Made by a program: the position numbers and the translations under genes. The notes under the pieces were generated by a model. The model had not been told where the DNA came from. It searched no databases and saw nothing but the letters and a program-made list of their open reading frames with translations. From assembly GCA_021818505.1 (NCBI GenBank), contig JAKADX010000018.1, positions 1 through 64,000 of the forward strand: a stretch of 64,000 nucleotides of DNA. The letters are read 5' to 3'. The stretch comes from Pseudomonadota bacterium. Lineage in GTDB: Bacteria; Pseudomonadota; Alphaproteobacteria; Acetobacterales; Acetobacteraceae. Every line of letters begins with the position of its first letter. Positions within the stretch are counted from its first letter, which is position 1. Shown piece by piece: positions 1 through 15,339 of this stretch.

Positions 1-228
1 CTGAAGCGTGTTTGCCGCCAGGTGAACGTCGAGATCGTACGTCGCTGTGACACCGGAAAGTTCGTGGTGCTGCCCAAGCGCTGGCTCGTCGAGCGCACCA
101 TCGGATGGCTGAACCGGTGCCGCCGGCCGAGCAAGGATTGGGAGTGCCTGAACCGCAACGCGCTCGCATTCCTGCACGGGGCGTCCGTGCGGAGAATGCT
201 GCGAAGCCTATGCCAAAGCCCCGAATGA
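1..228 (+). CDS. IS5-family transposase, C-terminal part (partial)
   Basis: This is the last 75 or so residues of a transposase whose start lies upstream of the window. The block V-E-R-T-I-G-W-L-N-R is typical of the DDE domain C-terminus in IS5-family enzymes, which cut and rejoin IS ends. The reading frame is open from base 1. It faces a second transposase fragment on the other strand (245-337), so at least one of the two elements is broken. Confidence 0.75.
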   Translation: MKRVCRQVNVEIVRRCDTGKFVVLPKRWLVERTIGWLNRCRRPSKDWECLNRNALAFLHGASVRRMLRSLCQSPE

Positions 229-244
229 TCTTGGACAGACTCCC
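1..244 (+). mobile_element. 3' fragment of an IS5-family insertion sequence
   Basis: This fragment enters from the left edge of the window. It carries the C-terminal part of a DDE transposase in frame 1, ending with a TGA at 226-228. The readable protein contains LPKRWLVERTIGWLNR, the conserved C-terminal block of IS5-group transposases that includes the catalytic glutamate region. Just after the stop, TTGGACAGACTCCC (231-244) resembles, in inverse orientation, the end at 404-420, so it is read as the right terminal repeat. The 5' part lies outside the window, so completeness cannot be judged. Confidence 0.8.
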
Positions 245-421
245 AGGCTTCACCAGGGCCCATTCCTCATCCGTCAGATCGCTCGGGTAACGCAAACCGC
301 TGCGGTCATAGCGGTCGCGGTTCTCCTCCGTCCACATCGGGCTGCTCCCGCGAATCGGCTCCGCCCATCACAGAATCACAACCGACTCAATGGACTCAAC
401 ATGTTCGTGGACAGACACTTA
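245..421 (-). mobile_element. 5' fragment of a second IS5-family element (left end plus transposase N-terminus)
   Basis: Reading leftwards from the end AAGTGTCTGTCCACGAA (complement of 404-420), an ATG at 337-335 opens a frame beginning MWTEENRDRYDRSGLRY and continuing into SDLTDEEWALVKP. This is the standard N-terminus of IS5-family (IS427-like) transposases. Homology stops near 245-250, exactly where the right end of the plus-strand fragment (231-244) begins. The element is therefore truncated, by insertion of, or recombination with, a related copy. Its left end cuts the sugar ABC ATPase gene and supplies that gene's stop codon. Confidence 0.75.
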
Positions 422-1572
422 GCGGGTGAACTCACCAAGGCGCGAGGCACTGATATTCGCTGCTACGTCGAGCAGCATTGCCAGGCCCTGGCCTTTGCGG
501 TCCTCCGTCACCAGGCCAATCCCCAGCGCGATCGCGCGAGCCGGCGACATCTTCGCATAGTATCGGCCATCGATCGACAGCGTGCCCGTGGCCATCGGCA
601 CGCCACCGAAGATCGCCTGTGCCAGTTCGGTGCGCCCGGCGCCGACCAATCCGGCCAGGCCGACGATCTCACCCGCGCGCAGCACGAGGCTCGCGCTGCG
701 GACGCGCCCTAGCACGCTGATCCCCTCGGCGCGCAGCACCTCCCTGCGCTCGCCAGCGGCGGGGCGCTTCGGCGGGAACAAGTGGGCCATGTCGCGGCCG
801 ACCATCATGCTGATCAGCCGATCGCGATCGACGTCGGCAACGGCATTCGTGCCGACGAGTTGGCCGTCATTCAGCACGCTGACGTTGTCGCAGATAGAAA
901 AAATCTCCCCCAGCCGGTGCCAGCAAGTGCAAGATATAGATGGTGGCAACGCCATCGCGCTGCAGCGCGTGCAGCCGCTCGGACAGCAGCGTCACCTCGC
1001 GACCGGAGATCACCGCGGTCGGCTCGGCAAGGATCAGCAACTTGACGTTGTGGACCAGCGCCTTGGCAATCGCCACCATCTGCTGGTCGGCGACGGTCAG
1101 GTCGCCCACGCGCCGCCGCGGGTCGAGCGCCGCGCCGAGGCGCCGGAGCACCTCGCGCGCGTCCTCCACCGTGCGGCGGTGGTCAACCATCCCTAGGCCG
1201 CCGCTGCGCTCGTGGCCGAGGAAGATGTTCTCGGCGACCGAGAGGTTCGGGAACAGCACCAGCTCCTGATAGATCACGTGGATATCGTGCCGCTTCGCCA
1301 CGCCGGGGGAGGCCCAGTGCACGATCTCGGCACCAAACTCGATCTGACCCTCGTCCGGCTGATACACGCCGGCGATGATCTTGGTCAGTGTCGATTCGCC
1401 CGCCCCGTTCTCGCCGACCAGCGCATGGATTTCGCCGGCGGCGACGGCAAGACTGACCCGGGACAGCGCCTGCACGCCGGGAAAGCTCTTCGAGACATGG
1501 CTGAGGGCAAGAATGGTTCCTGACCGACAGGTCGGTGGCCGACGAAGTGGCTGCTTCGCCGGCCGCGTCCGT
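419..1572 (-). pseudogene. sugar ABC transporter ATP-binding protein (RbsA-like), decayed
   Basis: The remnant belongs to the double-domain ATPases of ribose-type sugar importers, which have two ABC modules and about 500 residues. The first module is readable from about 1520 (S-H-V-S-K-S-F-P-G-V) down to about 930. The second continues in another frame from about 925 (R-L-G-E-I-F-S-I-C-D-N) to 419. Damage is multiple. Walker A reads GENGAGEST with Lys replaced by Glu, and Walker B reads LLILAEPTA with Asp replaced by Ala. About 10 extra bases near 917-930 shift the frame after I-Y-I. The C-terminal module is cut by the IS end, which provides the TAA at 421-419. No permease gene follows. Its start is not clear and may also be damaged. 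It lies just downstream of the binding-protein pseudogene. Confidence 0.85.
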
Positions 1573-2720
1573 CTAGTGCGGGTAGTCGATCTTGTACGTC
1601 GTCGGGTTGTAGCCCGGCCCCATGCCACCGGAGATCAGCATGTCGTCCGGCCCGTCGGGGACCACATGATCCTCGATATACATGTCCGGATGTGGGATGG
1701 ACGGCGTCTCGTCGCCGTGGGACAGCACGATGTTGGTCGGGATCGTGTAGATGCAGGGCACTGGCGCGCCGTTCAGCACCTGCAGTGCGACGTTCAACGA
1801 CACACCCATCATCGCCGGAGGGTAGTCGATGTCCAGCATCGGGACAAGGTATTTCAGCGACATCTTCAGCGGGCCGTTCAGGTCGGCGCTCGTGTGCATC
1901 GGGATTTCGCCCGTTTCCAGCCGGCTTCGACGAAAGCCTCGATGGAGCCGGGCACCTGCAGCCCATGCGCCGACCAGACCGCATCGATCTGGTGACCGTA
2001 TTTGGCGATCACCGCCTGCATTACCTGCTTGCCCTTCACGGGGCTCCAGTCGGAATAGACCGTGTCGAGGATCTTGATGCCGGGGTATTGGGCGAACACC
2101 TCGCGTGCCGGCCTCTCGCGGTTTTCCGACGGGCTGGAGCCAGCCTGGCCGCCGAGCATCACTACGTTTCCCTTGCCGTGCAGCTTCTCGACGATCCACT
2201 GCGCGAACAACCGGCCCATCATCGCATCCGAGGCGGTGACGAACGTCACGAAGTTGTCGGAGGCGATGCGGCGATCGACCATCACCACCGGGATGCCCTG
2301 CTTCATCACGCGCGACACCGCCGGATCGAGCGCCTGCTGCGTGTTGGCGCTGACGATCAGCAGGTCGATGCCCTGCGAAGCGAGATCCTGGATGTCGGCG
2401 ATCTGCTTGCTGTCGTCGTGGTTGGCGTTGGTGATGATCAGCTTCTTGATCACATCGGCATGGTCGTGCGCTGCTTTCTCAAGCGAATGCAAGCCGACGA
2501 CCCGCCACGAATCGCCATGGCCGGCATTGGAGAAGCCGCCTACGTAGGGCGGCTTTTTCTTGTACTTCGCGGTATCGTGGAAACAGACCGAGATCGCGGG
2601 GTTGAACAGGTAGGTGCGCGGTGCACCTTTGTAGCCCGGTTCATCCGCCCTGGTGGCGGCGGCGGAACCCAGGATCGCCAAGGCGCCGACGGCGCCACGC
2701 AGCAGCAGCTTCCTCAGCAT
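1573..2720 (-). pseudogene. periplasmic sugar-binding protein (RbsB/Peripla_BP_4-like), frameshifted
   Basis: The start at 2720 gives a signal peptide (M-L-R-K-L-L-L-R-G, hydrophobic core, A-A-T-R-A-D) followed by a type I periplasmic binding fold. Visible features are I-D-L-L-I-V-S-A-N-T near residue 117 and G-I-P-V-V-M-V-D-R-R near residue 143. The frame runs to about 1905 (V-E-A-G-W-K) and then shifts by one base. The remainder (T-G-E-I-P-M-H to the TAG at 1575-1573) is in a different frame. Joined, the product would be about 380 residues, long for the family but coherent. The frameshift is seen directly; it could in principle be a sequencing error, but the downstream ATPase gene is also broken. 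Confidence 0.8.
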
Positions 2721-2785: not shown

Positions 2786-2801
2786 AGCAATCGCCATGCC
2801 A
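2786..2801 (-). promoter_or_regulatory. sigma-54 (-24/-12) promoter for the decayed sugar transporter
   Basis: The minus strand reads TGGCATG-GCGA-TTGCT, matching the TGGCAYR-N4-TTGCW consensus with GG and GC exactly 10 bases apart. Transcription would begin near 2774, about 54 bases before the binding-protein start at 2720. No copy of the TGAWACA-CC-TGTATCA palindrome was seen close upstream, so activation might come from the site at 4019-4034 or from an unrecognised one. Confidence 0.7.
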
Positions 2802-2812
2802 CGCATCGCGCG

Positions 2813-3883
2813 TCAGGGGATGATGCGCTCGCGGCGCAGACGGTCGAACAGGCGGGTCATCGCGGTCGATGTTTTCTGATAGTCTAGGAAACCCAGCTCA
2901 CGACTGCGGCTCATGTCGGTCAGGCATTCCTGCGTGCGGCCAAGGTCGGCATCGACGTGCCACCACGGCGCGATCGCTTCAACCTTGTTGGGACGCAGGC
3001 CATAGCGGGCGACAATGCGGTCCCAGTCCGGGCCGACATCAGCGAGGCTCTGCGCGAGCGGGCGCGTCTCGCCGGGATAGGGTGCCGCCGGCAGGTCGAA
3101 GTACTCGGCAATCTGGCGCCATAGTTTCTTCCAGCGGAACACGTCGCCGTTGACGACATTGAATGCCATGTTGGCGGCGTTCGGCTCGGTCGTTGACCAC
3201 ACCAGATGCCGCGCCAGAATGCGCGCGTCGGTCATGTCGGTCACGCCGGCATATTGCTGCGGCGAACCGGGGAACACGAACGGCCGACCGGTCTCCCTGC
3301 AGATCGAGGCATAGACGGCTAGCGACGTGCCGAGATTCATAGCGTTGCCGGGCGCGTAGCCGATGATCGTGTGCGGCCGCGCCACCGACCAGGTGAAGCC
3401 GTGCTCAGCCGCCAGGTCGAACAGGATGTCTTCCTGCGTGTAGTAGAAATTCGGACCGGGCACGCGCGGCTGGTCCTCGGTGAACGGCGTGTCGAGTTCG
3501 ACGGTGGCGTAGTTCTCGAAGCTGCCGAGATAGTGCTTCAACCCGGTCACCAGCGCCACGTGTCGCACCCCGCCACCGGCCACCGCTGCCAGCACGGCAT
3601 TGCGGAACATCGCGCCGTTCACGGCGCAACTTTCCACCTCGGTGGGCTGTCGTGCCCAGGTGCAGAAGAACACGTGGGTCGGGCGTCCCAGCCCGCTCAC
3701 CGCTTCGCGCGTCGCCGCGGCGTCCATCAGGTCGGCAGTTGCCCGGCGAACGACGCCGAGATCTTCGTGTGCGTGCCGCGACAGGCCCGTCACCGACCAG
3801 CCCGCCAGCGGGCCGATATGCTCGGCGAGGTTGCGGCCCACGATACCGCTGACCCCGACGATGAGTGCCGTCTTGTCCACCAT
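2813..3883 (-). CDS. PRISE-type SDR (progesterone 5-beta-reductase/iridoid synthase-like)
   Basis: A 356-residue atypical short-chain dehydrogenase. The N-terminal G-V-S-G-I-V-G (about residues 9-15) is the dinucleotide-binding turn. F-Y-Y-T-Q-E-D-I-L-F and S-V-A-R-P-H-T-I-I-G-Y-A-P-G-N-A-M-N are hallmarks of the PRISE family, which uses NADPH to reduce enones or related carbonyls. The start at 3883 follows a strong ribosome-binding site, GGGAGGAGAG. It is transcribed away from a shared control region (3884-4149) that holds a consensus sigma-54 promoter. The physiological substrate is unknown; bacterial members act on varied enones and none can be assigned here. The decayed sugar transporter lies downstream on the same strand. 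Confidence 0.8.
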   Translation of the reverse strand: MVDKTALIVGVSGIVGRNLAEHIGPLAGWSVTGLSRHAHEDLGVVRRATADLMDAAATREAVSGLGRPTHVFFCTWARQPTEVESCAVNGAMFRNAVLAAVAGGGVRHVALVTGLKHYLGSFENYATVELDTPFTEDQPRVPGPNFYYTQEDILFDLAAEHGFTWSVARPHTIIGYAPGNAMNLGTSLAVYASICRETGRPFVFPGSPQQYAGVTDMTDARILARHLVWSTTEPNAANMAFNVVNGDVFRWKKLWRQIAEYFDLPAAPYPGETRPLAQSLADVGPDWDRIVARYGLRPNKVEAIAPWWHVDADLGRTQECLTDMSRSRELGFLDYQKTSTAMTRLFDRLRRERIIP

Positions 3884-3941
3884 GTCTCTCCTCCCGGGCA
3901 CGAACGGCGGCGCGACCGACGGCGTGCCGCGCAGAGCCGAC

Positions 3942-3957
3942 AGCAACCGCCGTGCCA
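3942..3957 (-). promoter_or_regulatory. sigma-54 (-24/-12) promoter for the PRISE reductase
   Basis: The minus strand reads TGGCACG-GCGG-TTGCT, a full match to the sigma-54 consensus with GG-N10-GC spacing. The predicted start of transcription is near 3930, 47 bases before the coding start at 3883. The palindrome at 4019-4034 lies about 60 bases upstream, a normal position for an activator site. Confidence 0.85.
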
Positions 3958-4018
3958 CGGTAGCGCGGCGGTTGGCACCCGACGGCAGTGCTACACGAAG
4001 GCGACAGGCGTTACATTG

Positions 4019-4034
4019 TGAAACACCTGTATCA
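4019..4034. promoter_or_regulatory. candidate activator site (palindrome) shared by two divergent sigma-54 promoters
   Basis: TGAAACA-CC-TGTATCA is a 7-2-7 inverted repeat with one mismatch. It sits between the sigma-54 promoters at 3942-3957 (minus) and 4087-4102 (plus), about 61 and 52 bases from them. A perfect version of the same palindrome, with the same CC centre, sits between the other divergent sigma-54 pair at 12342-12357. The likely binder is the AcoR-type activator encoded at 9274-11274; that assignment is inference. Confidence 0.75.
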
Positions 4035-4086
4035 TGCGTGTCGCGCAGATGGTGTGTGGCGGCGGGGTGCATCCGTACCCGCGTCA

Positions 4087-4102
4087 TGGCATGACGGTTG
4101 CT
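4087..4102 (+). promoter_or_regulatory. sigma-54 (-24/-12) promoter for the M24-CobW-E1-VOC operon
   Basis: TGGCATG-ACGG-TTGCT matches the sigma-54 consensus with GG-N10-GC spacing. Transcription would start near 4113, 37 bases upstream of the ATG at 4150. The short leader contains a GC-rich hairpin (GCGGGCGCCGCCCGC) and the ribosome-binding site GGGAGAG. Confidence 0.85.
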
Positions 4103-4149
4103 GAGACTGGCCGCGAACGTACGCGGGCGCCGCCCGCTGGGAGAGCAGC

Positions 4150-5403
4150 ATGGAATACAGCGTCCGCCGCGCAACGGCGACCTACGGCACCATGACCAAG
4201 GACTGGGAAGCCGGCATCGACTACCGCAAGATGCACCAGGATCGCCTCGGCCGGGCGCAGGAGGCGATCCGCGCGGCTGGGCTGGGCGGCGTGCTTTGCT
4301 TCACCTTCGACAATATCCGCTACGTCACCTCGACGCATATCGGTGAATGGGGGCGCGACAAGTTCGATCGCTATGCGCTGTGTCCGGCCAGCGGCCCGGC
4401 GTTCCTGTGGGATCCCGCGCCGCCGGCCAAGCGCAAGTACAGCCCGTGGCTCGGCAAGAATCTCGGCGCGCCGGTATCCACGCTGCAAGGCGCGATCCCG
4501 CCCGGCTTTGGTATCGAGAACGAGTTCGCCCGCCAGGTGAAGGCGAAGATGGTCGAACTCGGCATCGCAAACGCGCCGCTCGGCATCGACCTGATGGAAC
4601 TGCCGATGCTGCGCGCGCTCGAGGCCGAGGGCATCGAGGTGGTGGACGGCCAGCAGGCGATGCTGGATGCGCGGGCAATCAAGACGGCCGAGGAGATCGA
4701 ACTGCTCAAGGTCGCTGCGGCGATGGTGGACGCAACCTATCTCGACGTGGCGCGCGCCATCCGACCCGGCACGCGCGAGAGCGATTTGGTGGCGATCGCT
4801 AATGATAAGCTGTACGCTTTGGGTTCGGAGCGCGTCGAGTGCGTCAATTCGGTGGCCGGCCCGCGCGGCGCGCCGCATTCGCACACCTTCTCCGACAGGA
4901 TCATCCAGCCGGGCGACATGATCTTTCTCGACATCATGCACTCGTTCAATGGCTACCGCACCTGCTACTATCGTACCTTCATCTGCGGCAAGCCCAACCG
5001 CCACCAGATCGAGGCGTACGAGCAGTGCTCGCAATGGGTGAACGCGGCGATCGAGGCGATCAAGCCGGGCGTGACGACTGACACCATCGCCTCCGCCTGG
5101 CCGAAAGCCGAGGAGTTCGGATACAGTAACGAGGATGAGGCGTTCCTGCTGCAGTTCGGCCACGGCATTGGATTGAGCCTGTGGGAACGTCCGATCATCT
5201 CGCGCCGCTACATGGGCAGCCAGTCGTTGATCAAGAAGGGCATGGTGTTTGCCGTCGAGTGCTGGAAAGGTGCCGCCGACGGTTCGGGTGCCGCACGTAT
5301 CGAGGAGGAAGTCGTTGTGACCGACGATGGCTGCGAGATCATCACCAACTTCCCGTCCGACCATCTGATCTCCTGCGGGTTGCCCGGCTGCGAGGTTTTT
5401 TGA
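4150..5403 (+). CDS. M24-fold (Xaa-Pro peptidase/creatinase-like) enzyme
   Basis: A 417-residue protein with a creatinase-type N-terminal domain (F-D-N-I-R-Y near residue 54) and a C-terminal pita-bread M24 domain from about residue 170. Metal-site elements seen are F-L-D-I (first Asp), F-G-H-G-I-G-L (His), F-A-V-E-C-W and R-I-E-E-E-V-V-V (Glu residues). The second Asp, expected in G-Y-x-x-D, is replaced by Cys in G-Y-R-T-C-Y-Y-R-T. This makes an ordinary two-metal aminopeptidase unlikely. M24 relatives that are not peptidases include creatinase and the DMSP lyase DddP. It is the first gene of a sigma-54-driven operon and is followed after 11 bases by a CobW-type GTPase that might serve metal delivery. 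Confidence 0.75.
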   Translation: MEYSVRRATATYGTMTKDWEAGIDYRKMHQDRLGRAQEAIRAAGLGGVLCFTFDNIRYVTSTHIGEWGRDKFDRYALCPASGPAFLWDPAPPAKRKYSPWLGKNLGAPVSTLQGAIPPGFGIENEFARQVKAKMVELGIANAPLGIDLMELPMLRALEAEGIEVVDGQQAMLDARAIKTAEEIELLKVAAAMVDATYLDVARAIRPGTRESDLVAIANDKLYALGSERVECVNSVAGPRGAPHSHTFSDRIIQPGDMIFLDIMHSFNGYRTCYYRTFICGKPNRHQIEAYEQCSQWVNAAIEAIKPGVTTDTIASAWPKAEEFGYSNEDEAFLLQFGHGIGLSLWERPIISRRYMGSQSLIKKGMVFAVECWKGAADGSGAARIEEEVVVTDDGCEIITNFPSDHLISCGLPGCEVF

Positions 5404-5414
5404 CGGGGCGGGCC

Positions 5415-6542
5415 ATGCCGATCTGGGTAACGGTCATCACCGGCTTCCTTGGTTCAGGGAAGACCACGCTCCTGAACGCGCTGCTCAAACAGCCGGACCT
5501 TGCCGATGTGGCGGTCATCGTCAACGAGTTTGGCGAAGTGGGCGTGGATTCCGACCTGATGACCGGCAGCGCGGAGACGATGGTGCAGCTTGCCAATGGC
5601 TGCCTGTGCTGCTCGGTCAAGGGCGAACTGATCGACACGTTCCGTGACCTGGCGATCCAGCGCCAGGCGGGCGTGCTGCCGCGCTTCGATCGGGTGGTGA
5701 TCGAGACCACCGGCATCGCCGATCCCGGCCCGGTGCTGCAGATCATCCTGACCAACCCCATGGTGCGCAACGCCTACGCCCTCGACGGGGTGGTCACGAC
5801 CGTCGATGCTGTCAACGGCCTTACCTCGCTCGCCAATTTCTCCGAGTCCGTGCGGCAGGTCGCGGTTGCTGACCGGCTCGTGCTGACCAAATGCGACTTG
5901 CCCGAGTCCGCGGAAACCCTGCCACCCCTGCACGCCGAGTTGCGCCGGATCAACCCCGCCGCGCCGGTCATTTCGGTGATCAGGGGGCGGATCGACGCGG
6001 CGGCGCTGCTCGGCACCGGTGTTCTCGATGCGCAGACGGGACGGCCAGCGCCCGACCGATGGATCAACCCAGATGCCTATGCCGCGACGCCGGACGCGCC
6101 GGCGACGGAGTTGGGGCAGGTTTTGCCGTCCGAAGCCGTCGCCGTAACTTACGCGCAGCAGCACCACGCGCATGAGGAGCACGGCCACAATCATGGCGAC
6201 GTGCAGAGCTTCTGCGTGACTCGCGATGACCCGATCCCGCTCGACACGCTGCGTCTTTTCCTCGACGCGATCGCGCGCGAGGCCGGCCCGGACCTGCTGC
6301 GCGTGAAAGGGCTGATCCGCACCGTGGAGCGGCCGGACACGCCGGCGGTGGTGCAGGGCGCGCAGCAGATCTTCCACTCGCTTGACTGGCTGGACGCCTG
6401 GCCGACGGCCGACCGGCGCAGCCGCATCGTGTTCATCACGCGCGGCATTCCGCGTATGCACATCGAAGATTCGCTCGCCCTGATCGAGCGCGTGGCGCGC
6501 CGCACCGCGCGGGCGGCGGGCCGTGGAGGACGACATGGCTAG
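5415..6542 (+). CDS. CobW/COG0523-family GTP-binding metallochaperone-like protein
   Basis: A 375-residue G3E GTPase. The P-loop G-F-L-G-S-G-K-T-T is at residues 9-17, the metal-binding C-L-C-C-S-V-K-G near residue 65, E-T-T-G-I-A-D-P-G-P near residue 97 and T-K-C-D near residue 158. A His-rich stretch (H-H-A-H-E-E-H-G-H-N-H) near residue 250 precedes the CobW C-terminal domain. Such proteins use GTP hydrolysis to load metals such as zinc into client enzymes. The client here could be the M24 protein encoded just upstream or the zinc-type alcohol dehydrogenase at 13559; this is inference from position. Its stop overlaps the start of the following E1 gene. Confidence 0.85.
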   Translation: MPIWVTVITGFLGSGKTTLLNALLKQPDLADVAVIVNEFGEVGVDSDLMTGSAETMVQLANGCLCCSVKGELIDTFRDLAIQRQAGVLPRFDRVVIETTGIADPGPVLQIILTNPMVRNAYALDGVVTTVDAVNGLTSLANFSESVRQVAVADRLVLTKCDLPESAETLPPLHAELRRINPAAPVISVIRGRIDAAALLGTGVLDAQTGRPAPDRWINPDAYAATPDAPATELGQVLPSEAVAVTYAQQHHAHEEHGHNHGDVQSFCVTRDDPIPLDTLRLFLDAIAREAGPDLLRVKGLIRTVERPDTPAVVQGAQQIFHSLDWLDAWPTADRRSRIVFITRGIPRMHIEDSLALIERVARRTARAAGRGGRHG

Positions 6543-8730
6543 AACGACACCGCTCGCCCCGATGGCGGCGTGGGAAGAGATCGAATCGACGCCGCAGGAC
6601 TGGGACGCGCTCGGCGCCGAGGCAGCGCTGCGCATGCACTCCCACCTGCACCTGATCCGTGCCTTCGAGGAGGCGGTGCTGCAGGTGAACCAGGACGGGC
6701 TGGTGCACGGCCCGGCGCATTCCAGCATCGGGCAGGAGGGCGGAGCAGTCGGCGCCATCGCCGCCTTGCGCGCGACTGATCAGATCAGCGGTTCGCACCG
6801 GGGCCATCACCAGTTCCTGGCGAAGACGCTGCGCTACGTCGATCCGCCGACGCACGATCCGCGGCGCGACGAATTGCCCGCCACGGTGCGCACGGTGCTG
6901 CGCCGGTCGCTGGCCGAGATCATGGGGCTGAGCGAAGGCTACTGCAAAGGCCGTGGCGGCTCGATGCACCTGCGCTGGGCGGAGGCCGGTGCCCTCGGCA
7001 CCAACGCGATCGTCGGCGGCGGCGTGCCGTTCGCCAACGGTGTCGCCTGGGCGCGCAAGCGGCGCGGCACCGGCGATGTCGTGTTCACGTTCTTCGGCGA
7101 CGGCGCGGTGAATATCGGCTCGGTGCCCGAGTCGATGAATCTCGCCGCGCTGTGGGATCTGCCGATCTGCTTCTTCATCGAGAACAACGGTTTCGCCGTC
7201 TCGACGACATTGCAGGAGGAAAGCCGCGAGACGCGCCTGTCGTCGCGCGGGCTTGCCTACGGCATTCCGTCGCTGCGCGTGGACGGCATGGATCCGCTCG
7301 CAGTCAAGCTGGCTGCCGAGCGCGCAACTGCGATCATGCGCGCGGGCCAGGGGCCGGTGATCATCGAGGCGATTCTGTATCGCTTCATGCACCACGGCGG
7401 CGGCACCGTCGGCAGCGCCTTCGGCTATCGCAGCAAGCAGGACGAGGAAGCCTGGCGCAAACGCGACCCGCTGCTGCTGATGGCCCGCGAGATGACGGCG
7501 CGCGGCTGGCTGACCGCAGAGGACGATGTGCGGCTGCAAACAATGGCGCGTGACGCGATGCGCGAGGTGGTCGAGTATCTGACCGAACCCGAAGGAAATC
7601 GCCGGAAGATCAGATCCCATCTCTGGCCCGACCCGAAATTCCGCGACGCCGGCCTGCGTGGCGACCTGAGCGAGTTCGCCGGCGCGCGCTACGAGGAACA
7701 GGCGACATTTCGGGGTGCGATGAGCGAGACCAAGTTCATTGACGTGGTCTCGCGCGTGATGCACCGGCGCATGGAGACCGACGAGCGCATCTTCTGCCTT
7801 GGCGAGGACATCCACCGGCTGCGCGGGGGCACCAACGGCGCGACGCGCGGCCTTGCCGAACGCTTCCCCGACCGCATCATCGGCACGCCGATCTCTGAAC
7901 TCGGCTTCTCAGGACTCGCTGGCGGGGTCGCGATGGAGGGCACCTACCGGCCGGTCGTCGAACTGATGTATCCTGATTTCTCGCTGGTGGCGGCCGACCA
8001 GTTGTTCAACCAGATCGCCAAGGCGCGCCACATGTTCGGCGGCGACACGCCGATGCCGTTGGTTCTGCGTACCAAATGCGCGCTCGGCAGCGGCTATGGC
8101 TCCCAGCACTCGATGGACCCGGCGGGGTTGTACGCGCAGTGGCCCGGCTGGCGCATCGTCGCGCCCAGCACACCGTTCGACTATGTCGGGCTGATGAACA
8201 GCGCGCTGCGCTGCCAGGATCCGGTGCTGGTGATCGAGCACGTGGACCTCTACGGCGCGACCGGCCTCGGCCCGGACAGCGATTTCGACTACTACATCCC
8301 CTTCGGACGCGCCCGCATCGCGCGTGCCGGCACGGCGATGACGGTGCTCACCTATCTGGCGATGACGCCGCTGGCGGTGGAGGCGGCGGAGAAGACCGGT
8401 ATCGACGCGGAGATCATCGACCTCCGCTCGCTCGATCGCGCCGGGCTGGATTGGGAAACGATCGGTGCCAGCATCCGCAAGACCAACAACGTCGTCGTGC
8501 TGGAGCAAGGGCCACTCACTGTGTCCTACGGCGCATTGCTGGCGGACGAAGTGCATCGCCGCTTCTTCGACTGGCTCGACCAGCCGGTGCGGCGAATCCA
8601 TGGCGGGGAGGCGGCGCCAGCGGTGTCGAAGGTGCTCGAACGCGCGGCTTTCGTCGGATTGCCGGAGATCATGGAGGGGTTGGCGGCCACCGTGGCCGAC
8701 CAGGGCGGACTGAAATGGGCGGCGCAATGA
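6535..8730 (+). CDS. fused E1 alpha-beta subunit of a TPP-dependent 2-oxoacid/acetoin-type dehydrogenase
   Basis: A 731-residue fusion. Residues of about 20-340 form the E1-alpha domain with the thiamine pyrophosphate motif G-D-G-A ... E-N-N-G-F-A (about residues 188-220). Residues of about 395-725 form the E1-beta transketolase-like domain (C-L-G-E-D-I-H, L-R-T-K-C-A-L-G-S-G-Y-G). E1 decarboxylates a 2-oxoacid or cleaves acetoin and passes the acyl group to a lipoyl E2. The start at 6535 follows GGAGGA and overlaps the upstream stop by 8 bases, so translation is coupled. No E2 or E3 gene is in the window. The nearby AcoR-type activator recalls acetoin operons, but the substrate is not settled. 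It ends in an ATGA overlap with the VOC gene. Confidence 0.85.
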   Translation: MARTTPLAPMAAWEEIESTPQDWDALGAEAALRMHSHLHLIRAFEEAVLQVNQDGLVHGPAHSSIGQEGGAVGAIAALRATDQISGSHRGHHQFLAKTLRYVDPPTHDPRRDELPATVRTVLRRSLAEIMGLSEGYCKGRGGSMHLRWAEAGALGTNAIVGGGVPFANGVAWARKRRGTGDVVFTFFGDGAVNIGSVPESMNLAALWDLPICFFIENNGFAVSTTLQEESRETRLSSRGLAYGIPSLRVDGMDPLAVKLAAERATAIMRAGQGPVIIEAILYRFMHHGGGTVGSAFGYRSKQDEEAWRKRDPLLLMAREMTARGWLTAEDDVRLQTMARDAMREVVEYLTEPEGNRRKIRSHLWPDPKFRDAGLRGDLSEFAGARYEEQATFRGAMSETKFIDVVSRVMHRRMETDERIFCLGEDIHRLRGGTNGATRGLAERFPDRIIGTPISELGFSGLAGGVAMEGTYRPVVELMYPDFSLVAADQLFNQIAKARHMFGGDTPMPLVLRTKCALGSGYGSQHSMDPAGLYAQWPGWRIVAPSTPFDYVGLMNSALRCQDPVLVIEHVDLYGATGLGPDSDFDYYIPFGRARIARAGTAMTVLTYLAMTPLAVEAAEKTGIDAEIIDLRSLDRAGLDWETIGASIRKTNNVVVLEQGPLTVSYGALLADEVHRRFFDWLDQPVRRIHGGEAAPAVSKVLERAAFVGLPEIMEGLAATVADQGGLKWAAQ

Positions 8731-9269
8731 CACAGCATGCACGCGGCTTGCCGGGACTGCGCGGCACGGACCATATCGGCTTCACGGTGCCGAACCTCGA
8801 CGAAGCGGTGGCGTTCTTTGTCGATGTCATCGGCTGCGAGCCGTTCTACGACCTCGGCCCGTTCCAGGCCGACGACGACTGGATGCGCACGCATCTCAAC
8901 GTGCATCCGCGCGCGGTGATGCGGCGGCTGAAGTTCCTGCGCTGTCGCAATGGCTCGAATTTCGAGATCTTCGAGTACCAATCACCAGAGCAGCGACGTG
9001 AGCCGCCGCGCAACAGCGATGTCGGCGGCCATCACCTCGGATTCTACGTGGACGATTTTGCCGCCGCGCTGGCGCATCTGCGCGCGCATGGCGTGCGCAT
9101 CCTCGGTGAGCCGACCGTGCGCACCGCCGGGCCGAGCGCGGGGCAGACCTGGGTGTATTTCCTCACACCCTGGGGGATGCAGATGGAACTGGTCAGCTAC
9201 CCCAACGGCAAAGGCTATGAGCGCGACACCGACCGCCGGCTCTGGCATCCGGCCCGGCCCGCGGAATAG
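8727..9269 (+). CDS. VOC-superfamily (glyoxalase/dioxygenase-fold) protein
   Basis: A 180-residue protein with two beta-alpha-beta-beta-beta units. Potential metal ligands of the fold are visible: His in G-T-D-H-I-G-F near residue 14, Glu in N-F-E-I-F-E-Y, His in G-G-H-H-L-G-F near residue 101 and Glu in Q-M-E-L-V-S-Y near residue 156. Such proteins act as lyases, epimerases or ring-cleaving dioxygenases. It overlaps the E1 stop by four bases (ATGA) and closes the operon that starts at 4150, so it probably handles an intermediate of the same pathway. It ends four bases before the convergent activator gene. Confidence 0.8.
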   Translation: MTQHARGLPGLRGTDHIGFTVPNLDEAVAFFVDVIGCEPFYDLGPFQADDDWMRTHLNVHPRAVMRRLKFLRCRNGSNFEIFEYQSPEQRREPPRNSDVGGHHLGFYVDDFAAALAHLRAHGVRILGEPTVRTAGPSAGQTWVYFLTPWGMQMELVSYPNGKGYERDTDRRLWHPARPAE

Positions 9270-9273
9270 CGGC

Positions 9274-11274
9274 TCAGTTCACCCGTACCGTCCGGCTGAT
9301 CCCGCTCTCCCGCATGCGCCGATAGACGGTGCAGCGCGATACGCCAAGCGCACGCGAGACCCGCGAGATGTTGCAGTTGTGTTCGAGCAGCGCGCGCCGA
9401 ATCGCGTCGATCTCGATTCCGTGAAGTGTCGTCGCACCAGGCGTGGTCTCTGCTTCGGGCATCGGGACGCGCGCCGGCGCCGATGTGATCGCGTGGCGCA
9501 TGCGCGCGGGAAAATGCTCGGGCCGGATGTCGGACTGCATGCACATGAGCGCCGCCATCTCCAGCACGTTTTCCAGCTCGCGGATATTGCCTGGCCAGTC
9601 GTAGCGATACAGGCAGTCCATCGCCTCCGCCGACAGCGTCAGCGCGCCTTTGTCCAGCTTTGACGCCGCGCGTGCCAGCAGCCGGCCAGCCAGCAGTTCG
9701 ATGTCGTGGCCGCGCGCGCGCAGCGGCGGCAGTGCCAACTCCATCACACTGAGCCGGAAGAACAGGTCGGAGCGGAAGCCGCCGGCCTGGCTCTTGGCAA
9801 ACAGATCCTCGTTGGTCGCCGCGATCACACGCACATCGACCGGCATCGGCGCATTGTCGCCCAGTCGCGTCACCACCCCGTCCTGCAGCACCCGCAGCAG
9901 CTTGGCCTGCAGATCGAGCGGCATCTGGCTGATTTCATCGAGGAACAGCGTGCCGCCGTCGGCCAGTTCGAACTTGCCGACCTGGCCGCCGCGACGCGCG
10001 CCGGTGAAGGCGCCGTCGCGATAGCCGAGCAGTTCCGCCTCGATGAGTTCGCGCGGCATGGCGGCGCAGTTCAGCGCCACGAACGGACCGGCGGCGCGGC
10101 GGCTGGCGTTGTGGATGCCCTGCGCCAGCAGCTCCTTGCCGGTGCCGGTCTCTCCGGTGATCAGCACGCGCGCGTCCTGCGCCGCGACCAGCCGGGCGAG
10201 CCGCAGCGTGGCGCGCAGGGCGGGATCGCTGCCGGCGATGTCATCGAGCGTGTAGCGTGCGGCGAGCCGCAATGCGCCGGCCTGCGCCTTGGAGGACTCG
10301 CGTCGGCTGAGACTGAGGATCGCACCCTGCGCGGCGTCATCATCATTTTCGCGAATGGTGAAGGACTTCACCATCACCTGACTGCGCTGGCCGCCGACGT
10401 CGCAGACCACCTCAAAGGCCTGCGCGACGGCGCGCGAGGCGATCAGGTCATCGAACCGCATGCCCGGCATCAGCGCCGTGATCTTCTGGCCGCCCAGCTT
10501 CGACTCCGTGCAACCCAACAGCCCGGCCGCACCGCGGCTCGCATAGAGGATGCGGCCGTCGGAGCTGATGGTCAGCAGCGGGTCGGCGACACGCCCGATC
10601 AATGAGCGGGCAATCCGCTCCGTGCGCGCGGCCTGTTCCTCGGCAAAGCGTTCGCGCAGCCGGTTCTGGATCGCTTCCGCCGCCGCGATCACCATGCCCA
10701 ATGTGTGCCGATGCACCTCGTGCGATTCGGCCGACAGCGTCACGGCGCCGAGGAACGTGCCGTCATGGTCGAACACCGGCGCGGAGGAGCAGGTCCAACT
10801 ATGATGGCGGCTGTTGTAGTGCTCTGCACCGAACAGCTGCATCGGCCTGCGCTCGATCATGGTCAGGCCGATCGAGTTGGTGCCGACGGCGATCTCGGAG
10901 CGGCAGCACCCCGGCACGAAATTATTGGCGTTGGCGCGCGCCAGCACGTCGGCATCGCCATAGGTCTGCAGCACGATGCCGTTGGCGTCAGTCAGCACCA
11001 GGATGAATCCGCTGTCGCGCACTGCCTGGGCCGGAAAGCCCATGATCGGTTCGGCGGCGTCGAGGTAGCGGCGTTGCTGTTGCAGCAATCGCCGCAGTTC
11101 GTGTTCGCGCAACTGCACCGGCACTTTCGGCCCGCGCGGGTTCAGACCGGCGGCGCGACAGCGCATCCACGAGCGTCCGATCTCGGGGCGGACGCAGTCG
11201 TGCGCGATCTCCGTCGTGGCACAGAAATGCTCCCACGCGCTGTAATGTCGCTCGAAGAGTGCGCTGTGAGACAT
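9274..11274 (-). CDS. sigma-54-dependent activator, AcoR type (GAF-PAS-AAA+-Fis HTH)
   Basis: A 666-residue enhancer-binding protein. A GAF-like sensor spans about residues 60-215, a PAS-like segment about 220-320, the AAA+ sigma-54 interaction domain about 340-580, and a Fis-type helix-turn-helix about 615-660 ([14 protein letters not shown]). Walker A is G-E-T-G-T-G-K-E and the sigma-54 contact loop G-A-F-T-G-A is intact. The start at 11274 is chosen because GGGGGAG lies just upstream; an alternative is at 11289. There is no response-regulator receiver domain, so it probably senses a small molecule. Five sigma-54 promoters and two matching palindromes lie within 8 kb, making this the obvious regulator of the cluster. 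Confidence 0.9.
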
Positions 11275-11429
11275 GCGATCTCCCCCCATCGGCGCATTAT
11301 TGGTGTTAAGGAGATGGTGGCGCCGCCTGGGGCGGCCGCAACCGGCTCACTTGCGCGCCTAACACTGACAATCCTGACACTAGCACCGGCCGGACGCACC
11401 GGCAAACACCGTCGTCGCGGATCGACTCG

Positions 11430-12224
11430 TCAGCCCAGACCTGTGACGATGCCGCCTTCCACACGCAGCGAGGCGCCGGTCGTGGCGCTGGCTGCATCCG
11501 AGCAGACATAGACCACCATGTTCGCTATTTCCTCGGTCGAAGCGAAGCGGCCGAGCAACGAAGTCGGGCGTGCGCCGACAAAGAAATCACGCTCCAGCTC
11601 CTTCGCCGACCGTCCAGTGCGCGCGGAGTCGGCGGCCAGCATGGCGTTGATGCCCTCGGTGGCGGTCGGGCCGGGCAGCACGCTGTTCACGGTCACGCCG
11701 CTGCCCGCCAGCTCGCGCGCGAGGCCCCGCGCCACTGCGATCTGCGCTGTCTTGGTGACGCCGTAATTGATCATCTCGACCGGAATCAGCAGACCGGACT
11801 CGCTGGAGATGAAGACGATCCGGCCCCAGCCGCGGTGTCGCATCCCCGGGCCATAGGCCCGCGCGAGCCGGACGCCGGAGAGCACGTTGAAGGCGTAGAA
11901 ATCCATCCAATCCGCATCGCTGGTCTCGAAGAATCCCTTGCGCTCGTATTTGCCGACATTGTTGACCAGGATATCGACCTCGGGGTGGCGCGCCACGAGT
12001 GACGCGGCGCCGGCCTCGCTGACCACGTCGGCGGCGCAAGCCTCGGCACTGGCAGCCGGCACGGCGGCGCGCAACCGCGTCAGCGCGTCCACAACCCCGG
12101 CCTCGGTGCGCCCGTTCACGATCACGTGTGCGCCCTCCCGCGCCAGACCGACCGCGGTTGCGAAGCCGATGCCCGTCGTGGAGCCGGTGACCAGCGCCCG
12201 GCGGCCGGCGATTTTCAGGTCCAT
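11430..12224 (-). CDS. short-chain dehydrogenase/reductase (classical SDR)
   Basis: A 264-residue NAD(P)-dependent oxidoreductase. It has the cofactor motif T-G-S-T-T-G-I-G near residue 14, N-N-V-G near residue 89, a catalytic Ser (F-I-S-S-E-S) near residue 140 and Y-G-V-T-K near residue 154. The start at 12224 has the ribosome-binding site GGGAGAG; an upstream in-frame ATG at 12278 overlaps the sigma-54 promoter and is rejected. It is transcribed from the minus-strand member of a divergent sigma-54 pair, with the activator gene following on the same strand after 155 bases. The substrate is unknown. Confidence 0.85.
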   Translation of the reverse strand: MDLKIAGRRALVTGSTTGIGFATAVGLAREGAHVIVNGRTEAGVVDALTRLRAAVPAASAEACAADVVSEAGAASLVARHPEVDILVNNVGKYERKGFFETSDADWMDFYAFNVLSGVRLARAYGPGMRHRGWGRIVFISSESGLLIPVEMINYGVTKTAQIAVARGLARELAGSGVTVNSVLPGPTATEGINAMLAADSARTGRSAKELERDFFVGARPTSLLGRFASTEEIANMVVYVCSDAASATTGASLRVEGGIVTGLG

Positions 12225-12261
12225 CGCGCACTCTCCCGGACAATCCCCTTCGGCTCGGGGT

Positions 12262-12277
12262 CGCAAGCCCCATGCCA
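12262..12277 (-). promoter_or_regulatory. sigma-54 (-24/-12) promoter for the SDR gene
   Basis: The minus strand reads TGGCATG-GGGC-TTGCG with GG-N10-GC spacing. The predicted start of transcription is near 12250, 26 bases before the coding start at 12224. The perfect palindrome at 12342-12357 lies about 65 bases upstream. Confidence 0.75.
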
Positions 12278-12341
12278 CGCGCTCGCTGCAACTCGGCCCG
12301 TCTCACCAAGCGAAGCGCCCGGCGGGAAAGCTCCGATCGCT

Positions 12342-12357
12342 TGATACACCTGTATCA
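12342..12357. promoter_or_regulatory. candidate activator site (perfect palindrome) between divergent sigma-54 promoters
   Basis: TGATACA-CC-TGTATCA is a perfect 7-2-7 inverted repeat. It stands 64 bases from the minus-strand sigma-54 promoter (12262-12277) and 61 bases from the plus-strand one (12419-12434), so it is almost exactly central. The second copy in the window, at 4019-4034, differs in one base and has the same arrangement. Confidence 0.8.
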
Positions 12358-12418
12358 TCAGCAAACAGCCAGCGACGGCCATTGGTCGATACGACCGAGA
12401 TCGTCGGGTCTAACCTGG

Positions 12419-12434
12419 TGGCATGTCGCTTGCT
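12419..12434 (+). promoter_or_regulatory. sigma-54 (-24/-12) promoter for the Gfo/Idh-ADH-SDR operon
   Basis: TGGCATG-TCGC-TTGCT matches the sigma-54 consensus with GG-N10-GC spacing. Transcription would start near 12445, about 95 bases before the ATG at 12540. An ATG at 12423 lies inside this promoter and so cannot be the translation start of a transcript made from it. Confidence 0.85.
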
Positions 12435-12539
12435 GCCCCGCCGCCAAGCCTCACAACATACGCCTCGTCGGTGGCCGGAGTCCCGCTGCGGCACCAGGCC
12501 GCGACGGACGAGGGGCATGACGCGAAGGGAGCGGAACGG

Positions 12540-13541
12540 ATGATCGGCGTGGCAATGGTCGGGCTGGGCTGGTGGGGCCGCAAGATGAGCGGGTTGGTGC
12601 ATACTCGTTCGCGCACCATGCGCCTCGTCCGCGCGGTCGAGCCGGACCACAACGCCGCAGCGCCGTTCGCGCGCGACCTCGGCGTGCCGCTGTCGGCCGA
12701 CTATGCCGAGGCGCTGGCCGATCCGGCCGTGACGGCGGTGATCCTGGCGACGCCGCACGCGCTGCATGTAGGCCAGATCGCGGCGGCGGTGGCGGCCGGC
12801 AAGCACGTGTTCTGCGAGAAGCCGCTGGCGCTGACCCGCGCCGAGGCGGAGCGGGCGGTGCGGCTCTGTGCGCAGGCCGGGCTGGTGCTCGGCATGGGGC
12901 ATGAGCGCCGCTTCGACCCCCCGATCGCGTCGCTGCTGGCGGACGCGGCCGCCGGCCGCCTCGGCACGCTGCTGCAGGTCGAGGGGCAGTTCAGCCACGA
13001 CCGTTTTCTCGCCCTCAGCCCCGACAACTGGCGCCTGCACCCCGAGCACGCGCCGGCCGCCGGCATGACCGCGACCGGCATCCACCTGACCGACCTCGCG
13101 GTGAAGCTGCTCGGCCCGGCGAAGGAGGTCCTGGTCACCTGCGAGCAGCGCGCCTCGTCCATGCCGTCGGGGGATACGCTGAGCGCCTATGCGCGCTTCG
13201 CCGGCGGCGGCACGGCCTATATCTCGGCCAGCCTGGCGATGCCGTTCGTCTCCCGCTTCGCTGTCTATGGCACGCATGGCTGGATCGAGGTGCGCGACAA
13301 AGCGCATGTCGAATCGCCGGCCGGCTGGGTGGTGACGCGCGCGATGCGGAATGGCCCGATCACCGTCGAGGAGGTGCCGCCGGCCGAGCCGGTGCTCTCC
13401 AACCTCGACGCATTTGCGCGCGCCGTCGCCGGTGAGGCACCATATCCGATCACCGGCGCGGAGATGATCGCCAACATCGCGCTGCTGGAGGCGATCGTCG
13501 CCGGAGCCACATCGCGCCGCCTGGAACAGGTGGCGGCGTAG
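12540..13541 (+). CDS. Gfo/Idh/MocA-family oxidoreductase
   Basis: A 333-residue protein with an N-terminal Rossmann fold (V-G-L-G-W-W-G near residue 7) and the family motif C-E-K-P-L-A near residue 95 that contacts the nicotinamide. The C-terminal alpha/beta substrate domain includes T-G-I-H-L-T-D near residue 180. These enzymes oxidise or reduce hydroxyl groups of sugars, inositols and related polyols with NAD(P). The start at 12540 has the purine-rich GAAGGGAGCGGAAC upstream. It heads a three-gene operon driven by the sigma-54 promoter at 12419, followed after 17 bases by an alcohol dehydrogenase. Confidence 0.85.
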   Translation: MIGVAMVGLGWWGRKMSGLVHTRSRTMRLVRAVEPDHNAAAPFARDLGVPLSADYAEALADPAVTAVILATPHALHVGQIAAAVAAGKHVFCEKPLALTRAEAERAVRLCAQAGLVLGMGHERRFDPPIASLLADAAAGRLGTLLQVEGQFSHDRFLALSPDNWRLHPEHAPAAGMTATGIHLTDLAVKLLGPAKEVLVTCEQRASSMPSGDTLSAYARFAGGGTAYISASLAMPFVSRFAVYGTHGWIEVRDKAHVESPAGWVVTRAMRNGPITVEEVPPAEPVLSNLDAFARAVAGEAPYPITGAEMIANIALLEAIVAGATSRRLEQVAA

Positions 13542-13558: not shown

Positions 13559-14557
13559 ATGAAGGCCCTGGTGTTCGAGGCACCCAACCAGCCCGCCATC
13601 CACGACCTGCCGCAACCGACGATCGACGACACGCAGGTGCTGATCCGGACGCGTGCCGTCGGCATCTGCCATTCCGACTACGAACTTCTGTATGGCCGCT
13701 ACATCATCCCGATCAGCTATCCCGTCACGCCCGGACACGAATGGGTGGGCGAAGTGGTCGAGGTCGGCCGATCGGTCAAAGGCTTCCGGCCGGGCGAGCG
13801 GGTGGTGGGCGAGTGCGTGGTGCGGCTGCCGGATCGCGTGCATCATTTCGGCTTCTCGCTCGACGGGGCCGACCGCGAATACTTCGCGGCACGACCGGAG
13901 TGGCTGCACAAGCTGCCCGACACGCTGCCCGACGCGACCGGCTCGATGGTCGAGCCGTTCACCTGCGGCTACTACGCCATCCGCAACATCGGCGGCACCG
14001 ATGCCAGCCAGACCGTCGTGATCTCCGGCGGCGGCACGATCGGCCTCGTCACCGCCGCGGCGGCGATCGGGATGCGCGCGCGCGTCATCGTCATCGACCC
14101 GATCGCGCACCGGCGCGAGGCGGCGCTGCGCCTGGGCTGCGCCGCCGCGATCGACCCGCTGGCGGAGGACGCGGTCGCGCGGGTCGAGGACCTCACCGGG
14201 GGCGCGCGCGCCGATCTGGTGGTGGAGGCGTCGGGGCATGACAGTTCGCTCGGCACCGTGTTCGACCTCGCGCGCCAGGACGGGCGCGTGGCGATGGTCG
14301 GCATCAATATCGGCCGGCGCATTCCCTCCCATCTTGGCAACATCCAGATGCGCAACCTGACGGTGAAGGGCAGCATCGGCTCGCCCGGCGTGTGGCCGGA
14401 CGCGATCCGCTTCCTCGAACAGACACGCATCGACCTCTCGCCGATCCAGACGCACGAATTCCCGCTCACCGATGCGGTCAACGCCTTCGCGCTCGGCAAA
14501 CAGGCCGATCAGTGCATCAAGGTCACGTTGCACAACACGGCGGAGACGGTCCGATGA
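13559..14557 (+). CDS. zinc-type alcohol/polyol dehydrogenase (MDR family)
   Basis: A 332-residue medium-chain dehydrogenase. Catalytic zinc motifs are G-I-C-H-S-D near residue 37 and P-G-H-E-W-V-G-E near residue 59; the cofactor turn is S-G-G-G-T-I-G near residue 157. The usual four-Cys structural-zinc lobe after residue 90 is absent: only one Cys is present there (G-E-C-V-V). Overall layout resembles sorbitol, idonate or threonine dehydrogenases, oxidising a secondary alcohol with NAD(P). It is the second gene of the operon and is translationally coupled to the following SDR by ATGA. Confidence 0.85.
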   Translation: MKALVFEAPNQPAIHDLPQPTIDDTQVLIRTRAVGICHSDYELLYGRYIIPISYPVTPGHEWVGEVVEVGRSVKGFRPGERVVGECVVRLPDRVHHFGFSLDGADREYFAARPEWLHKLPDTLPDATGSMVEPFTCGYYAIRNIGGTDASQTVVISGGGTIGLVTAAAAIGMRARVIVIDPIAHRREAALRLGCAAAIDPLAEDAVARVEDLTGGARADLVVEASGHDSSLGTVFDLARQDGRVAMVGINIGRRIPSHLGNIQMRNLTVKGSIGSPGVWPDAIRFLEQTRIDLSPIQTHEFPLTDAVNAFALGKQADQCIKVTLHNTAETVR

Positions 14558-15339
14558 GCCGCCTCGCGGGCAAGGTCGCCGTTGTCACCGGCGGCGCGCA
14601 GGGCATCGGCGAGGGCATCGTGCGGCGGCTGGCGGGGGAAGGGGCGCGCGTCGCGGTCGCCGACATGAATGCGGCGAAGGCCGACGCCGTGGCGCAGGCG
14701 CTGCGCGCGGCGGGACACGAGGCGATCGCGGTCGCGGTGGACGTGGCCGAGCGCGCGCAGGTCAAAGCGATGATCGCGCAGACGGTCGCGGCCTTCGGCG
14801 GCATCGACATCCTGTTCAACAACGCCGGCTTCAACAAGCCGCTGCCGTTCTTCGACGCCGACGAGAGCAACTTCAACGCCATCATGCGCGTCAACGCGCT
14901 CGCCGTGCTGATCGGGATGCAGGAAGCCGGCCGGCAGATGATCGCGCAGGGGCGCGGCGGGAAGATCATCAACACTGCCTCGATCGCCGGCCGCCAGGGC
15001 TATCCCGAGTTCGCGCCCTATTGCGCCAGCAAGGCCGCGGTGATCTCGCTGACCCAGGCCGGCGCGCGGGAGCTTGCGAAGCACAGGATCACCGTCAACG
15101 CCTTCGCCCCCGGCGTCGTGGTCACACCGCTGTGGGACGGGCTGGAGCAGGACATGCTCGACAAGGGCGTGATCCAGCGCAAGGGTGAGTTCATCGAAAG
15201 CTTCTCGTCCGGCATTCTGATCGGCCGTCCGTCCCAGCCCGACGACCTCGCCGGCATGGCGGCGTTCCTCGCCTCTGCCGATGCCGACTGCATCACCGGC
15301 CAGGTCATCATGTCCGACGGCGGGATGGTGTTGGTCTGA
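14554..15339 (+). CDS. short-chain dehydrogenase/reductase (classical SDR)
   Basis: A 261-residue NAD(P)-dependent enzyme with T-G-G-A-Q-G-I-G near residue 12, N-N-A-G near residue 89, a catalytic Ser in N-T-A-S-I-A-G and Y-C-A-S-K near residue 155. Sequence style resembles acetoin/butanediol and polyol dehydrogenases, but the family is too broad to assign a substrate. It overlaps the upstream gene by four bases. It is the third dehydrogenase in one operon, which suggests serial oxidation of a polyhydroxylated or diol substrate. Confidence 0.85.
   Translation: MSRLAGKVAVVTGGAQGIGEGIVRRLAGEGARVAVADMNAAKADAVAQALRAAGHEAIAVAVDVAERAQVKAMIAQTVAAFGGIDILFNNAGFNKPLPFFDADESNFNAIMRVNALAVLIGMQEAGRQMIAQGRGGKIINTASIAGRQGYPEFAPYCASKAAVISLTQAGARELAKHRITVNAFAPGVVVTPLWDGLEQDMLDKGVIQRKGEFIESFSSGILIGRPSQPDDLAGMAAFLASADADCITGQVIMSDGGMVLV

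Follow-up and report, generated by a model that had tools for sequence, protein, structure and literature searches.

A perfect palindrome between divergent sigma-54 promoters is best read as an AcoR-type UAS with its own half-site

Our analysis of a 64-kb stretch of DNA (the window; 70% GC, within a 4.44-Mb genome) shows a perfect palindrome, TGATACA-CC-TGTATCA, which from its sequence and setting is best read as an AcoR-type UAS with a half-site of its own. It is very probably the UAS from which the AcoR-like sigma-54 activator encoded nearby switches on genes in both directions. We assign it to this activator because the only two sites in the genome within one mismatch of the palindrome flank the activator gene, because dyads of the same 7-2-7 class precede sigma-54 promoters at other AcoR-like loci, and because an AcoR site reported for Bacillus thuringiensis has a matching inner geometry. 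An earlier note on this DNA had proposed that the palindrome and its first copy form a probable operator of the AcoR-type protein; uniqueness, flanking position, recurrence of the dyad and the B. thuringiensis geometry all argue for that proposal.

The palindrome, which we call UAS2 (TGATACACCTGTATCA, 12342-12357), lies in the intergenic stretch 12225-12539 between an SDR oxidoreductase gene and a Gfo/Idh/MocA oxidoreductase gene. The earlier note had described it as perfect and as lying 61-64 bases from both promoters, and both statements hold: all 7 of 7 arm pairs are complementary, and the re-measured gaps are 64 bases to the leftward sigma-54 site and 61 bases to the rightward one. The sigma-54 (-24/-12) consensus is taken as TGGCAYG-N4-TTGC with GG/GC spacing, and the last C of TTGC is counted as -12, which is the rule used to predict transcription starts. 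By this rule, the leftward element (TGGCATGGGGCTTGC, 12263-12277, minus strand) has a predicted start near 12251 and the rightward element (TGGCATGTCGCTTGC, 12419-12433, plus strand) has one near 12445. The dyad centre is thus 98.5 and 95.5 bases from the leftward and rightward predicted starts, respectively. The elements match the consensus with its GG/GC spacing, and rpoN, which encodes sigma-54, is present in the genome. By eye, a small perfect palindrome, GGTCG-ATA-CGACC (12384-12396), can also be seen between UAS2 and the rightward promoter.

The second copy, UAS1 (TGAAACA-CC-TGTATCA, TGAAACACCTGTATCA, 4019-4034), pairs at 6 of 7 arm positions and, as the earlier note held, likewise lies between a divergent sigma-54 pair. 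The element to its left (TGGCACGGCGGTTGC, 3943-3957, minus strand) is 61 bases away and the one to its right (TGGCATGACGGTTGC, 4087-4101, plus strand) 52 bases away, so that the centre of this dyad is 95.5 bases from the leftward predicted start and 86.5 from the rightward one. We found no second dyad at either UAS1 or UAS2, and no good IHF site: judged against the consensus, there is only one match with 1 mismatch, overlapping UAS2, and one with 2 mismatches.

Could such a palindrome be a product of chance, without function between two genes? Perfect 7-2-7 palindromes are not enriched in this GC-rich window (12 observed versus 14.6 in 60 shuffles), so palindromy by itself is not evidence. What is unusual is the AT-rich sequence of UAS2, its second copy and its position. 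UAS2 is the window's only perfect 7-2-7 palindrome with at least 8 of 14 A/T positions (0.28 expected), and TGATACANNTGTATCA with up to 3 mismatches is matched 3 times in the window versus 0.23 expected. Across the whole 4.44-Mb genome, only 12342-12357 and 4019-4034 come within 1 mismatch of the palindrome, and both lie between divergent sigma-54 pairs that flank the regulator gene; 2 mismatches add two further genome sites, and the backward control pattern gives none. With an AT-rich sequence, a second copy at a matching place and no other near-match in the genome, we regard chance as an extremely improbable explanation. A further match at 50515-50530, which differs at 2 positions, falls within long open reading frames and was set aside as due to chance; the nearest sigma-54-like match to it is at 50697-50711, with 2 mismatches.

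The sigma-54 elements themselves stand out from background. Exact matches to TGGCAYG-N4-TTGC number 5 in the window versus 0.09 in 100 dinucleotide shuffles (maximum 1), and 5 of the genome's 14 fall within 2787-12433. Because the backward control is matched 6 times genome-wide, isolated exact matches elsewhere may be due to chance; five in 9.7 kb are not. All 4 of the genome's TGGCATG-type matches are inside the cluster.

The rightward promoter also bears on the start of the Gfo/Idh gene, which the earlier note had placed at 12540 on the ground that the earlier ATG at 12423 is within the promoter. That ATG indeed lies inside the rightward promoter element, upstream of the message's predicted start near 12445. 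The sole other in-frame ATG, GTG or TTG codon before 12540, GTG 12471, has no ribosome-binding site by eye. ATG 12540 is preceded by AAGGGAG, and the Rossmann domain starts at residue 2 of the resulting protein, both of which favor 12540 as the start.

The putative binder of UAS1 and UAS2 is encoded between them, at 9274-11289 on the minus strand. Its protein has a GAF domain, a weak PAS match, a sigma-54 AAA+ domain in which the GAFTGA motif is read in the translation, an AAA lid and an HTH_8 match, which together give the AcoR-type enhancer-binding architecture of GAF, sigma-54 AAA+ with GAFTGA, and Fis-type HTH. No curated equivalog model scores above its cut-off among the best 25 of the 29 models listed. 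The closest NCBIfam model is DhaR, the activator of the dihydroxyacetone kinase operon, which aligns over residues 29-665 and reaches 382.4 bits versus a cut-off of 551. The DhaR system serves dihydroxyacetone kinase, whereas no such family is found among the ten cluster proteins scanned in the window.

A different, unlinked regulator might own the palindrome, for example as a repressor of both promoters, with the AcoR-like protein binding elsewhere or needing no such site. The activator's AAA+ part matches four other places in the genome, none of them on this contig, and dyads with an ACA-N2-TGT core occur in other families: in the available text of PMC7253601, a CopY-type operator is given as TACANNTGTA, which is contained in the 12342 site. 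However, the TACANNTGTA core is interrupted in the first copy (AACANNTGTA), the AcoR-like gene sits between the two sites, which have no other match within 1 mismatch in the genome, and dyads of this class are found again at further AcoR-like loci. In addition, a site some 95 bases ahead of each predicted start would fit an enhancer better than a blocking operator. We therefore consider an unlinked regulator distinctly improbable. A CopY/BlaI operator in particular was rejected, as the genome has no PF03965 match at E ≤ 0.001, a search in which controls were matched in 7 of 14 genomes.

The assignment to the AcoR-like activator draws further on other genomes, in which we scanned for the paired pattern TGNNACA-N2-TGTNNCA-N45-75-TGGCAYG-N4-TTGC (385 genomes in the class sample and 397 in the family sample, with at least 4 common to both). 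The pattern is found at all four expected places in the window's own genome. Elsewhere it appears in 2 of 384 class genomes (G642 and G629) and in 1 of 396 family genomes (G1133); the backward control has none among the matches listed. Each of these three genomes has an AcoR-like gene within 3.5 kb of the pattern. G642 and G629 have one match each, TGCGACA-NN-TGTCGCA before an E1-alpha dehydrogenase gene, with the AcoR-like gene either 3.3 kb farther along or immediately adjacent and divergent. The G1133 match, TGTTACATATGTTGCA, has an AcoR-like gene on one side and, on the other, a divergent gene that by eye is aldehyde-dehydrogenase-like; with 5 pairs out of 7, its dyad falls short of the stricter requirement of at least 6.

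As a yardstick we used plasmid loci found by tblastn with the G629 AcoR-like protein, of which 17 of 141 records were chosen for spread. Eleven were chosen first, and six were added after 4 of the 11 showed the dyad; L193 only extends L184. An ACA-N2-TGT dyad with at least 6 of 7 pairs is present 52-100 bases upstream of a sigma-54 site at 8 of the 17 AcoR-like loci, a count to be read with the fact that the query protein itself comes from a locus found by the motif. Shuffled dyads gave 0 near the real sigma-54 sites of these loci in 100 runs. The eight loci (L182, L189, L190, L191, L195, L196, L197 and L200) amount to five lineages, because L190, L191, L195 and L196, whose regulators are 84-93% identical, are one lineage. 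The L182 dyad stands before an annotated acetoin dehydrogenase operon and those of L190, L196, L197 and L200 before an annotated 2,3-butanediol dehydrogenase gene, while the records of L189, L191 and L195 are without usable annotation. Similar dyads precede E1-alpha genes in L180 and L181.

At the other 9 of the 17 plasmid AcoR-like loci, a dyad paired with a sigma-54 site is absent. Paracoccus pantotrophus was scored among these, since all that precedes the sigma-54 site of its acetoin operon is a form with 5 of 7 pairs (CGCGACAGGTGTTGCA). Likewise, none of 20 other AcoR-like homologues (19 from the family and 1 from the phylum, 34-40% identical) carries such a dyad within as much as 1.5 kb of flanking sequence. 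The window regulator scores 209-294 bits against ten dyad-bearing regulators versus 290-353 bits against 19 of the 20 dyad-less homologues, with L143 aligned over 316 residues only. Judged by these scores, it is somewhat nearer in sequence to dyad-less homologues than to dyad-bearing ones. By eye, other dyads stand upstream of sigma-54 sites at L128, L129, L131 and L135 (for example, TGTCC..GGACA and CTGTCC..GGTACAG). Because several dyad-less relatives carry such other dyads, operators of AcoR-like proteins seem to fall into more than one class, and the sequences suggest a second such class.

At the thresholds applied, samples of 299 family, 385 class and 398 phylum genomes yielded no close orthologue for footprinting. 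Beside its own genome, the regulator is matched in 17 of 298 family genomes at E ≤ 1e-90 (34-40% identity), in none of 384 class genomes at E ≤ 1e-110 and in a single one of 397 phylum genomes at E ≤ 1e-105. There is no plasmid match at 1e-100, and none in the other 4 genomes of the genus at 1e-90.

None of the other AcoR-like loci in our comparison has the half-site TGATACA. When the bare palindrome was searched in genome contigs, it was matched at at least 118 loci in many phyla; among the matches listed, 12 of 118 have a sigma-54-like site with up to 2 mismatches within 250 bases. The site is exact only at L014, from a Hyphomicrobium MAG, which among the matches listed is the sole other place where the half-site stands before an exact sigma-54 site. 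Here (7057-7227), TGATACATCTGTATCA lies 140 bases upstream of a sigma-54 site that precedes a PQQ-dehydrogenase-like gene (named by eye). This locus, picked after the fact, gives weak support to the reading of the palindrome as an AcoR-type UAS. The two best AcoR-like genes of the same MAG have no dyad match with up to 4 mismatches in their flanks.

Comparison with known AcoR sites points the same way. For B. thuringiensis AcoR, the site GACAAAACGAGACAGATGTCTCATTTTGTC is reported (Peng et al., 2020, cited through the available text of PMC12648084), and its inner dyad, cGAGACA-GA-TGTCTCA, has the same 7-2-7 geometry with an ACA-N2-TGT core as UAS2. Like the window, the Bacillus acetoin system combines a GAF-type sigma-54 activator with a sigma-54 promoter, according to the available parts of PMC12648084, PMC4428206 and PMC10018347. 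In Bacillus the site extends over a 30-base palindrome that includes a second, outer box pair, and its target is the acetoin operon, as far as the available text of PMC10018347 describes them, whereas the window has the inner dyad only, with half-site TGATACA, and different genes. Other AcoR sites are reported without the 7-2-7 form in the same partial text of PMC12648084, namely CAGTTTGAGAC (after Ali et al., 2001) and ACGACACAGTTCGCGAA (by EMSA), and the Clostridiales AcoR motif is described in the available text of PMC6615313 as distinct from the common TGT-N10-12-ACA kind.

The Proteobacterial acetoin, 2,3-butanediol and E1-alpha dyads are similar in form to UAS2, with examples such as TGCAACA-CC-TGTTGCA, TGTGACA-CC-TGTCACG and TGCGACA-NN-TGTCGCA before sigma-54 sites. 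The difference lies in half-site positions 3-4, which are AT or AA in the window and CA, CG, TG or CC at the acetoin, 2,3-butanediol and E1-alpha loci, and the genes served also differ between the window and these loci. The window's sites thus have the 7-2-7 dyad, the ACA-N2-TGT core and the location upstream of sigma-54 sites that mark an AcoR-type UAS, a class in which some AcoR-like loci and reported sites are without the dyad.

The genes around the two sites suggest a catabolic cluster of four units. To the left of UAS1 is the gene for a PRISE-like Rossmann-fold protein (2813-3913, minus strand), and to the right, on the plus strand, are those for an M24 metallopeptidase-family protein (4150-5403), a CobW-type GTPase (5415-6542, start by eye within ORF 5181-6542), a fused E1 alpha-beta protein (6523-8730) and a glyoxalase/VOC family protein (8736-9269). 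The M24, CobW and fused E1 genes lie in one unit (4150-8730), and the M24 protein has a paralogue at 50% identity on contig C55. To the left of UAS2 is the SDR oxidoreductase gene (11430-12224, minus strand), perhaps with the activator gene in the same unit, and to the right, on the plus strand, are the Gfo/Idh/MocA gene (12540-13541), a zinc alcohol dehydrogenase family gene (13559-14557) and a second SDR gene (14554-15339), whose start was set by eye and overlaps the preceding stop.

The fused E1 resembles the E1 subunits of dehydrogenases that act on pyruvate and other 2-oxoacids. Nevertheless, the cluster does not have the composition of an acetoin (aco) regulon, in that the fused E1 comes with no lipoyl/E2 domain among the ten cluster proteins scanned. 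For this reason, acetoin is not the obvious inducer, and 'AcoR-type' applies here to architecture and operator and does not imply acetoin as inducer.

It could be that the palindrome effectively serves one promoter, the other sigma-54 element being inactive or under another activator. The leftward element has no W after TTGC, a lone dyad might accommodate only one hexamer at once, and another sigma-54 element in the cluster stands without a dyad. Weighed against these points are the near-equal spacing (98.5 and 95.5 bases at UAS2, and a similar 95.5 and 86.5 at UAS1) and the presence on each side of a metabolic gene at a suitable distance, and we judge service to a single promoter to be quite unlikely.

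The element without a dyad is a fifth exact sigma-54 match (TGGCATGGCGATTGC, 2787-2801, minus strand), additional to the four in the earlier note; no dyad was found near it. It lies upstream of a decayed ABC-importer operon (1-2720, minus strand) encoding a Peripla_BP_4 binding protein and an ABC ATPase, 66 bases from the start of the binding-protein gene. Both genes contain frame breaks, while the sigma-54 element is intact. The Walker A motif of the ATPase reads GENGAGEST and its Walker B motif LILAEP, so that the usual Walker A lysine and Walker B aspartate are replaced. A transposase-like stretch (RYPSDLTDEEWALVKP, named by eye) lies at the contig edge. The fifth promoter may be a relic, or may formerly have been reached from UAS1.

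Taken together, these observations support a model in which the AcoR-like activator would bind TGATACA-CC-TGTATCA through its Fis-type HTH, with its GAF domain presumably sensing a pathway metabolite. The bound activator would then loop to sigma-54 RNA polymerase waiting at either promoter, which ATP hydrolysis by the AAA+ domain would open, and it would work likewise from UAS1 at 4019-4034. In this way, one activator and two shared enhancers could switch on all four divergent units together, and the inducer would be a substrate of this cluster rather than acetoin. Positive autoregulation through the leftward UAS2 promoter, a possibility absent from the earlier note, is plausible, because the leftward unit runs through the SDR gene toward the activator gene and because the 140-base gap between these two genes has no sigma-70 promoter or terminator match, as judged by the E. 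coli consensus only. From the same arrangement, the SDR gene is possibly co-transcribed with the activator gene.

That this is a known sort of bacterial switch, ordinary in kind and distinguished by its own recognition sequence, is well supported. A bolder picture, which we think unlikely, is of a laterally acquired catabolic cluster with its own TGATACA dialect, in which a self-feeding activator with a ligand other than acetoin would drive up to five sigma-54 promoters from two single-dyad enhancers, the fifth from UAS1 about 1.2 kb away.

On the AcoR-type reading, a regulator and gene cluster that had no name become a defined regulon whose DNA code can be tested. More broadly, the comparison suggests that a subset of Proteobacterial AcoR-like activators share an enhancer grammar, TGNNACA-N2-TGTNNCA, in which positions 3-4 vary between regulons. 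If this is true, target prediction would be possible in other genomes, and the clean divergent promoter pair would offer a model for how one enhancer serves two promoters.
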